From Hydrogenovibrio kuenenii DSM 12350 (lineage in GTDB: Bacteria; Pseudomonadota; Gammaproteobacteria; Thiomicrospirales; Thiomicrospiraceae), in contig NZ_JAGP01000001.1 of the NCBI RefSeq assembly GCF_000526715.1, positions 744,001-808,000 on the forward strand: a stretch of 64,000 nucleotides of DNA, given 5' to 3'. The translations under genes and the position numbers were made by a program. How positions within the stretch are numbered: position 1 is the first letter of the stretch; each line of letters opens with the position of its first letter. A model generated the notes under the pieces. It did no database searches and had not been told where the DNA came from. It was given only the letters and a program-made list of their open reading frames with translations. This document shows, in pieces, positions 27,990-52,149 of this stretch.

Positions 27990-28700
27990 TTAAGCATCTT
28001 TTTCATCAGTTTTTGAAGCATTGTCAGCTGCTGATTCGGTATCCGTTGAAGCTGTTTGAGTTGGTGTGATGCCTAAGTATTTGTTGGTGAAATCGGTCAT
28101 GCCTTTGGTAACTAAGTCCCACGTACTATTGAAGTTGTCTTTGATTTGACCATCAAAAACCTTGAGGTCACTCAAAATACCTTTAGCCTCATCAAACCCT
28201 TGTTTTAAACCGCCACCGACAACTTCATTGAATTTATCCATTAAAGCTTGCCCCTGCAATTCAGGGTGAATTTTTTGAAAGCCGTTTAAAAAGGCAGTTG
28301 AGCCTGAAACAATACGGTTTGCGGTGTTTTCTGGAGACCAGTATTCTATCCCACCTTGTTTTTTAAGGTTTTTTTCACTGATAGGCGCTGTGTCAGAATT
28401 ATTCTTGCTCTTGTCTGTACTTGTTTCACCAGTAGCTTTTGCATCAGCAGATAGGATTTCATTCAGTTTGCTAATTGCTGCTTGATAAGTCATTTTCAGC
28501 GCATCACTAGGCGCACTTTCTTTATTGCTAAACAGTGATGTTACAATGCTGGATTGTTGAGAGCTTTTAGAAGAGCTGATTTCAACACCATATTGTGCGG
28601 CTCTCTGCGCAGCAATATCCAATCCTTTTGCTTTGTTATTCGTTTGATTGGCATTGTTTTGGTAAGTCTGAACTAAGTCAGTAATAGTTGTGGCAGCCAT
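27990..28700 (-). CDS. DUF5610-like protein, probably flagellum-regulated
   Basis: The 236-residue hydrophilic protein is rich in Ser, Asn, Ala and Lys. It has a disordered N-terminal half (KSSQQSSIVTSLFSNKES), then a helical conserved part (GIEYWSPENTANRIVSGSTAFLNGF, and HPELQGQ followed by a G-L-K-Q-G-F-DEAKGIL region). This matches my recollection of DUF5610; the function is unknown. There is no signal peptide, transmembrane segment or enzymatic motif. A sigma-28-type promoter lies 100 nt upstream, which suggests late flagellar expression although the gene is 15 kb away from the flagellar block. Family assignment is moderate. Confidence 0.65.
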   Translation of the reverse strand: MAATTITDLVQTYQNNANQTNNKAKGLDIAAQRAAQYGVEISSSKSSQQSSIVTSLFSNKESAPSDALKMTYQAAISKLNEILSADAKATGETSTDKSKNNSDTAPISEKNLKKQGGIEYWSPENTANRIVSGSTAFLNGFQKIHPELQGQALMDKFNEVVGGGLKQGFDEAKGILSDLKVFDGQIKDNFNSTWDLVTKGMTDFTNKYLGITPTQTASTDTESAADNASKTDEKDA

Positions 28701-28799
28701 AATCTATTTCCTTCTGGTCAATGAAGAATTTTCTTCTAATGTTTTTTTATTTTACGCTTCTCATAAATGACTGAAAAGCTTTATATTTTTGTAAATAAG

Positions 28800-28826
28800 T
28801 TATCGGCCATAAGTGCTATTTCTTGA
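28800..28826 (-). promoter_or_regulatory. Sigma-28 (FliA) promoter of the DUF5610-like gene
   Basis: Read leftward: TCAAGAAA (28826-28819), an 11-bp spacer, then a perfect GCCGATAA (28807-28800). The -10 matches the FliA consensus in all eight positions. The -35 matches the TCAAG form common in flagellar class IV promoters. Confidence 0.82.
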
Positions 28827-29023: not shown

Positions 29024-30119
29024 ATGGAATTAAACCCGATTTATAGCAAAATCAAAGATTACTCTGAGCGTACGCAAGTGCTTAGGGGGTATCTTTGACT
29101 TTGAAACCAAACAAGAGCGCTTAGTCGAAGTCGATAGAGAGTTAGAAGACCCTACGATTTGGAATGATCCAGAAAAAGCCCAAGCGCTAGGAAAAGAAAA
29201 ATCTCAATTAGATTTGGTTGTAAAAACTATCAATGACTTGGAATCTAGTCTTGAGTCTGTTCAAGAAATTCTTGAAATGGCGGAGATGGATGAAGATGAA
29301 GAAATGGTCAATGAGGTTGAAGAAGAATTATCCCGCCTTGAACAGATGCTTGATAAGCTGGAATTTCAGAGAATGTTCTCAGGCGAGTTGGATGCTAATA
29401 GTTGCTATCTCGAAATTCAGTCAGGTTCTGGTGGAACCGAAGCGCAAGATTGGGCAAATATATTGCTCAGAATGTATTTGCGTTGGGCCGAGTCACATGA
29501 CTTTAAAGCAGAAATTTTAGAAATTTCGGATGGTGATGTTGCGGGTATTAAAGGTGCGACTGTTCATGTGCAAGGTGATTATGCCTACGGTTGGTTAAGA
29601 ACAGAAACAGGTGTACATCGTTTGGTGCGAAAATCACCTTTTGATTCAGGAAATCGTCGACACACCTCTTTTGCATCCGTATTTATTTCACCTGAAATTG
29701 ATGACAGTTTTGAGATTGAAATCAACCCAGCCGATTTGAGGATTGATGTTTATCGTGCGAGTGGTGCAGGTGGGCAGCATGTCAACCGAACAGAGTCTGC
29801 TGTACGTATTACGCATTTACCGACAAATACGGTGACTCAGTGTCAAAATGGTCGATCACAGCATCAAAATAAAGCGGAAGCAATGAAGCAGCTACGAGCT
29901 AAGCTTTATGAATTAGAAATGCAAAGCCGTAATGCTGAAAAGCAGCAGTTAGAAGATAGTAAGTCCGATATTGGTTGGGGAAGTCAAATTCGATCTTATG
30001 TCTTAGATTCGGGACGAATCAAAGACTTGAGAAGTAATATCGAAACGGGAAATACCGGTGCTGTATTGGATGGTGATTTGGATCAGTTTATTATTCCAAA
30101 CCTGAAAGCGGGCGTTTAG
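29024..30119 (+). CDS. prfB: Peptide chain release factor 2, with programmed +1 frameshift
   Basis: The first 24 codons ([20 protein letters not shown], then RGYL) run to an in-frame TGA at 29096-29098. The slippery CTT before the TGA and the internal Shine-Dalgarno-like AGGGGG match the RF2 autoregulatory frameshift site. Skipping one T (29096) continues in frame as DFETKQERL to the stop at 30117-30119, giving about 364 residues, the normal RF2 length. The GGQ catalytic motif is in [18 protein letters not shown]2 ends translation at UGA and UAA. Low RF2 allows the frameshift and makes more RF2. lysS follows, the common prfB-lysS pairing. Confidence 0.96.
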
Positions 30120-51426: not shown

Positions 51427-52149
51427 ATGACGGGTACTCAAATTTATGCAAATATTCAAAAGCAATTGGGTCAACCTATTGATATTGAAGAATTTTTGCC
51501 GCTTGTCAATCGAATTGCTTATCACTTGAAAGGGCGTTTGCCAGATAGTGTCATGGTTGATGATCTTATTCAATCTGGTGTTATTGGGTTGATTGAAGCA
51601 TCACAGAAATTTGATGCCAGCCAAGGTGCTAGTTTCGAAACCTATGCCGGTATTCGAATTCGTGGTGCTATGTTAGATGAAATTCGTAGAGGTGATTGGA
51701 CGCCAAGGTCTGTTTATCGAAAATCTAGAGAAGTATCTGACGCTATTTCGAAAATTGAAGCGAGAGAGGGGCGAGAAGCAAAAGACCCAGAAGTCGCTAA
51801 AGAAATGCAGGTAAGTTTGGACGAATACTATCATATTCTCCAAGATACAAATTCGGTACAATTGCTTTCCATTGACCAACCTGACCACGATGAGTTGTCA
51901 GAAGACAGAATGGTTGGACAAATGAAATCTCAGTTATTAGAGATTTCTGAAGATGGGTTCCACAAGGAATTATCACGGGAAATTGATAATTTGCCTGAAA
52001 AAGAGAAGCTTGTGATGGCTCTTTACTATGATGAAGAGCTTAACTTAAAAGAAATTGGTGAAGTATTAGAAGTCAGTGAATCTCGTGTAAGCCAGATTCA
52101 TAGCCAAGCAATAAAAAGATTAAAAGCTAGGCTAAAAGATTGGATTTAA
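51427..52149 (+). CDS. fliA: RNA polymerase sigma factor for flagellar genes (sigma-28)
   Basis: The 240-residue sigma factor has region 2 (VDDLIQSGVIGLIEASQKFD, FETYAGIRIRGAMLDEIRRGDW), region 3 and region 4 (LNLKEIGEVLEVSESRVSQIHSQAIKRL). It lacks the large region 1 and is the right size for FliA. It would recognise the GCCGATAA-type promoter found in front of the DUF5610-like gene and perhaps one in front of the receptor gene in this window. Confidence 0.97.
   Translation: MTGTQIYANIQKQLGQPIDIEEFLPLVNRIAYHLKGRLPDSVMVDDLIQSGVIGLIEASQKFDASQGASFETYAGIRIRGAMLDEIRRGDWTPRSVYRKSREVSDAISKIEAREGREAKDPEVAKEMQVSLDEYYHILQDTNSVQLLSIDQPDHDELSEDRMVGQMKSQLLEISEDGFHKELSREIDNLPEKEKLVMALYYDEELNLKEIGEVLEVSESRVSQIHSQAIKRLKARLKDWI

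Follow-up and report, generated by a model that had tools for sequence, protein, structure and literature searches.

Predicted sigma-28 promoter upstream of an orphan DUF5610 gene, a candidate member of the late flagellar regulon in Hydrogenovibrio kuenenii

A site resembling a promoter of the flagellar sigma factor sigma-28 (FliA), found in front of a gene that stands apart from the flagellar genes, raises the question of whether that gene belongs to the late flagellar regulon and, if so, what its product does there. The gene lies in the window, which is the whole 64,000-nucleotide stretch of Hydrogenovibrio kuenenii DSM 12350 DNA analysed here, and its description as "DUF5610-like" in the earlier note was substantiated by a match to DUF5610 (PF18433) with an E-value of 1.2e-21 and 77.8 bits, above the curated cut-off of 26.4. 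Its neighbours are the genes for FolD and, on the opposite side, a class I peptide chain release factor, in agreement with its reported placement between folD and prfB. As read from the sequence at positions 29024-29104 of the window, prfB apparently keeps its programmed +1 frameshift, with CTT TGA C preceded by a stretch of AGGGGG. The fliA gene of the window adjoins the genes for FlhB, FlhA, FlhF-type and FlhG-type proteins, CheY, CheZ and CheA.

The sigma-28 site and the gene downstream of it

Table 1. Coordinates, within the window, of the predicted promoter, the DUF5610 gene and fliA.
Feature	Position	Strand	Evidence
Predicted sigma-28 (FliA) promoter, TCAAGAAA-N11-GCCGATAA	28800..28826	-	Motif match; core kept in sister genomes, spacer diverged
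-35 element TCAAGAAA	28819..28826	-	Sequence
-10 element GCCGATAA, perfect octamer	28800..28807	-	Sequence
Ribosome-binding site AAGGA, 8 nt before ATG	28709..28713	-	Sequence
DUF5610 gene, 236 aa, no cysteine	27990..28700	-	Open reading frame, Pfam
DUF5610 domain, aa 66-204; confident helices aa 123-208	28089..28505	-	Pfam, predicted model
fliA, sigma factor expected to read the site	51427..52149	+	Pfam sigma-70 regions 2, 3 and 4; TIGR02479, 265 bits (cut-off 189.6)

The site has the layout of a sigma-28 promoter, with a TAAAG-like -35 element, the -10 element GCCGATAA and 11 nt between the two octamers. Sites were scored over 13 core positions, with the -35 pentamer allowed as TMAAG, and on that scale the site upstream of the DUF5610 gene matches at 13/13. 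The window contains the 27-mer TCAAGAAATAGCACTTATGGCCGATAA once as an exact match, at 28826..28800 (minus strand), and the ATG (28700) lies downstream of it, 99 nt from the -10 element. The earlier claims of a sigma-28 site with a perfect -10 element, located about 100 nt before the gene start, are thus borne out. A sigma-70-like match between the site and the DUF5610 gene was weak (9/12) and not above chance.

In the 2.45-Mb genome, the strict pattern TMAAG-N14-GCCGATAW occurs in nine copies, against none for the reversed pattern. A 3.4-kb contig on which part of the flgK region is repeated accounts for three of these copies, and the remaining six precede a YjfB motility gene, the DUF5610 gene, a gene for a secreted-looking protein, flgK and flgB, with one lacking a clear gene. 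A scan of the flagellin and flg regions, in which genes were named by Pfam, placed sites of the same class before four flagellin copies, fliD and flaG, and the DUF5610 site equals any of these in quality. Because the pattern is noisy when two mismatches are permitted, with 5 matches against 1.6 expected in the window and 181 against 114 in the control genome-wide, the strength of the site lies in its exact match and its conservation.

Other loci of the same genome were also noted. A perfect sigma-28 site at C1:24261-24287 of G000 (locus L027) stands before an orphan 86-aa frame that matches Pfam YjfB_motility with an E-value of 7.7e-14. A strict site at C1:1173357-1173383 (locus L029) precedes genes for two proteins without a Pfam match, one of 208 aa that looks secreted and one of 73 aa, and these are possibly two further late-flagellar genes. 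Contig C2 (3432 bases, L187) repeats pieces of the flgK region and carries a sigma-28-like site twice in opposite orientations, which suggests either an assembly artefact or an inverted duplication of local extent. A second, divergent copy of FliS (E 1.7e-18) is encoded at C1:2245775-2246116, well away from the flagellin locus, and a sigma-28-like site lies about 800 bases from it.

Conservation of the site and fate of the gene in relatives

Among the three closest genomes (G000, G001 and G010), identity is 100% over the 13 core bases, against 29% identity in the 14-nt spacer and 48% in the rest of the 330 nt, and a core that is kept while its spacer diverges is the pattern expected of a promoter. 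DUF5610 is present in 26 of the 34 genomes of the window's family, where a site scoring at least 11/13 was found within 500 nt at 21 of the 26 loci (shuffle mean 0.35; opposite strand 2) and the other 5 scored below 11. When named genomes were scanned with an alignment of DUF5610, 222 relatives emerged, the best 80 of which were retained; the genera represented include Methylotuvimicrobium, Methylophaga, Cycloclasticus, Psychromonas, Colwellia, Shewanella, Amphritea, Nitrotoga and Nitrosomonas. The carriers include cultured strains such as Methylotuvimicrobium buryatense 5G and Shewanella decolorationis S12, whose sites are of the 12/13 type. Within 200 nt upstream of these best 80 of 222 loci, the score was at least 11 in 50/80, at least 12 in 15/80 and 13/13 in 6, mostly 30-50 nt upstream of the ATG, and 30/80 scored below 11. 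The controls were far lower: shuffles gave 0.25 at a score of at least 11 and 0 both at 12 or more and at 13/13, the reversed pattern gave 3 and 0 at the first two thresholds, the opposite strand gave 2 and 1, and 453 other genes of the same loci gave 4, 0 and 0 at the three thresholds. A search of the phylum added 18 loci, with at least 11 at 8 of them (shuffle mean 0.2); four of the 18 belong to a family outside the class (f207) and have weak sites, scoring 8-10. Raw counts within 400 nt for 23 class loci were 8 at a score of at least 11 and 16 at a score of at least 10. The absence of the site from relatives, which the earlier note had named as an observation that would speak against its proposal, was checked, and the site was found to be kept at the majority of both the family and the named loci. 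The relaxed versions of the motif are common enough to make a chance match conceivable, but the exactness of the site, the nine strict copies against none in the genome and the conservation across the class render that explanation hardly credible.

The distribution of the gene follows that of FliA. Within the class, DUF5610 is encoded in 26/369 genomes and FliA scores over its cut-off in 208/369; FliA is found in 22/26 carriers of DUF5610 versus 186/343 non-carriers (one-sided Fisher p = 0.0017, with kinship ignored). The four carriers without FliA (G015, G347, G252 and G264) fall into two kinds. FliA, flagellin and FlhA were all looked for in G015 and G347 and none was found. In G015, a complete single-contig genome, the site is lost and a seven-A run near codon 29 of the DUF5610 gene carries a frameshift; the frameshift may be a sequencing error in that run, and it cuts off the native start of the gene, leaving a 171-aa open frame that spans the whole DUF5610 domain. 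In G347, an in-frame TAG falls within the DUF5610 match, and the protein (L054) was omitted from one protein set owing to this stop. G252 and G264 have matches to flagellin and FlhA, and are therefore likely to be flagellated, the lack of FliA probably reflecting the fragmentation of their assemblies; their sites score 13 and 12. Conversely, genera g2 and g7 of the window's family encode flagellin but no DUF5610 in all eight of their genomes (the flagellin of G027 being a single weak match), and DUF5610 is therefore dispensable for flagella, that is, accessory rather than core.

Taken with the site conservation, the co-occurrence with FliA and the two broken copies support, from sequence comparison, the link to late flagellar expression that the earlier note had drawn. 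We estimate a probability of about 85% that the DUF5610 gene, read from a functional sigma-28 promoter at this site, is a member of the late, FliA-class flagellar regulon, and DUF5610 as a whole is, very probably, an orphan late-flagellar gene family. Since relatives in many bacteria carry the same site, the protein is probably an undescribed flagellar accessory. No flagellar gene family recurred among the neighbours of DUF5610 at 18/20 loci (133/134 ORFs), a count that omitted one 2005-aa ORF and two loci. No plasmid match and no phage family was found, and a viral fold search gave no strong match.

The DUF5610 protein and its possible role in the flagellum

The predicted model of the window protein has a mean pLDDT of 70.4, and that of a Methylotuvimicrobium member 76.3; in both, confidence is high for a helical C-terminal domain and low for the N-terminal half. 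As modelled, the product is a soluble protein whose first 60 or so residues are disordered and whose C-terminal domain is helical, and no hydrophobic segment, signal peptide or membrane helix was found in the window protein. The model of the window protein superimposes on CV_1783 of Chromobacterium violaceum (PDB 3SJR), a structure without an assigned function, with a Z-score of 12.1 and 1.7 A over 84 residues, the next match having a Z of 8.0, and the Methylotuvimicrobium model does so with a Z of 12.4, again over 84 residues and 1.7 A and far ahead of the following matches. Because middling Z-scores are easily reached by helical folds, it also matters that the 3SJR sequence is linked to the Methylotuvimicrobium protein with an E-value of 2.4e-6. 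The structural match is confined to the C-terminal domain, and identity to CV_1783 is 17-20%.

Other forms of the protein occur. A long form of about 400 aa in other families (12 long forms, loci L042-L056) has a second, conserved C-terminal domain with TxDGDxV and GxLDExExxAI motifs, for which no clear Pfam, NCBIfam or PDB match was found. Many members (L104, L134, L151 and others) carry, N-terminal to the DUF5610 domain, two imperfect copies of a motif resembling FxQxVxxLAK ... GxxVSELAHxKN, and this two-copy motif is absent from the window's family.

Sigma-28 control, together with the decay of the gene along with the flagellum, would point to a late role for the protein, in assembling or using the flagellum. 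FlgM exits through the finished hook-basal body, and FliA is thereby released. Once freed, FliA would read the DUF5610 gene, which sits alone outside the flagellar cluster, and would switch it on with flagellin, fliD and flaG. The mechanism that we favour, at close to even odds, would make the product a late substrate for flagellar type III export that may join or coat the growing filament or be released. The main alternative, tentative but quite plausible with the odds somewhat against it, is that the product acts in the cytoplasm and assists either late assembly or the motor. We infer the dependence on FliA, the timing and the export, and the figure of 85% for the regulon does not cover export. 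The traits expected of an exported protein are seen, namely a disordered N-terminus, little cysteine and neither a signal peptide nor a membrane helix, but they are common to cytoplasmic proteins such as CheY. Cysteine is absent from all of the 80 named proteins (16,060 residues), 25/25 family proteins and 12/12 long forms, that is 117/117, against 1.17% cysteine in size-matched neighbour proteins; 2/10 short class members contain it. This lack was at first taken for a decisive sign of export, but 28/29 CheY, 21/29 FliS and 13/30 CheZ proteins are also free of cysteine, and on account of these controls it lends export weak support. FlhA, FlhB, FliA and CheY of this genome likewise have no cysteine.

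The cytoplasmic readings differ in what they assign to the protein. It might be a late-assembly chaperone related to or mimicking FliS, the flagellin export chaperone, with its last two helices binding FlhA or a substrate exported late, and would then remain inside the cell; this reading competes with export and leaves the promoter untouched, and it is worth serious consideration, if on the whole unlikely. A comparison of the profiles of DUF5610 (68 sequences) and FliS (31 sequences) scored 37.7, with a pairwise E of 4.3e-5 and a probability of 69% over 33 columns, and aligned EARDILKGLNVL-EGSIADNIDKTYDLVQEGL on the FliS helix pair ending GGEIAxNLDxLYDYMxRRL. The register was repeated with three other DUF5610 alignments, at scores of 36.4, 29.5 and 20.4, the last for the window's family alone (one family alignment comprised 23/26 proteins, G015, G018 and G019 being left out, and two others comprised 68/80 named loci). 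By comparison, 60 column-shuffled FliS controls reached at most 18.7, reversed FliS reached 15.2, and other flagellar profiles scored lower than FliS (CheZ 14.2, FliA 16.0, CheY 12.1, FliD 24.7). Yet the likeness is confined to the short helix pair, with 17 columns for the window's family, PDB profile searches from either side fail to recover the other, and no FliS is among the fold matches listed. A Pfam scan of the window protein at E-values up to 1 gave DUF5610 alone, with no match to FliS (PF02561), from which the protein also differs in length and N-terminus; to our knowledge, FliS-type chaperones lack a long disordered N-terminus of the kind seen here. Export is slightly favoured over a chaperone role because the likeness to FliS is weaker in the window's family and is missed by the PDB profile searches. 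In a more speculative and rather doubtful extension, DUF5610 would be a missing late part of polar flagella in wide use, a module derived from FliS that in some lineages has a second domain and that came to be exported itself or to serve as the dedicated chaperone of an exported protein; on that account, it would have escaped notice because it is carried outside the flagellar clusters.

Many sigma-28 genes located outside flagellar clusters encode accessory proteins of the motor or of chemotaxis, and the orphan position of DUF5610 in the loci examined and its dispensability for having flagella would suit a cytoplasmic brake, stator or receptor-array factor. Such a role seems improbable, since the same Pfam scan found no PilZ, CheW, response-regulator or MCP domain in the window protein and no chemotaxis family is among the 25 commonest neighbour families, save a generic response-regulator receiver domain in 2/133 proteins. 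The promoter might also be real and the protein serve a non-flagellar process timed with motility, such as surface sensing, adhesion or an envelope function, as the survival of the 171-aa frame with its whole domain in the non-flagellated G015 might hint; we consider this quite improbable, because an independent gene should not decay together with the flagellum, and in G015 the start is cut off and the site lost, just as the copy in G347 is broken.

Relation to known sigma-28 systems and to the literature

The promoter architecture of the DUF5610 gene is the same as that of the FliA late regulon (flaG, flgM and fliC), and flagellins, fliD and flaG share its promoter class in this genome, but the gene is unlike these members in standing alone between folD and prfB, in having no described function and in missing from some flagellated genera. 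The Fed and Cia proteins of Campylobacter are encoded by sigma-28 genes, and these products leave through the flagellum. Their likeness to DUF5610 lies in the sigma-28 control of non-structural proteins, which makes it a comparison of how the systems work, with no relation in sequence. A CiaI model matched 1/12 long forms (E 0.0021, far below the cut-off) and not the window protein, and this was treated as chance because it was not repeated in the other 11 long forms.

DUF5610 was absent from the literature searched, in which the queries CV_1783, 3SJR and PF18433 gave one unrelated match. The portions consulted of papers on the FliA regulons of Legionella and Pseudomonas (PMC5655016, PMC4866697, PMC4362757) name no DUF5610 protein, and PA3740 of Pseudomonas, once considered as one, was rejected, the papers describing it as a c-di-GMP receptor (MshEN or PilZ). 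In S. oneidensis, 169 sigma-28 sites were predicted (Wu 2011, PMC3120886). The promoter type and the regulon are thus known, and the membership of DUF5610 is undescribed in the literature searched, though the S. oneidensis list (PMC3120886) may include an earlier prediction.

As no flagellar family recurs beside DUF5610 in the loci examined, surveys based on gene clusters would miss it. If the reading of the gene as a member of the FliA-class regulon is right, a process would be assigned to a family without a described function that is present in 26/369 genomes of the class and 54/398 genomes of the phylum sample, and the late flagellar regulon would gain an orphan gene in bacteria ranging from methanotrophs to Shewanella.
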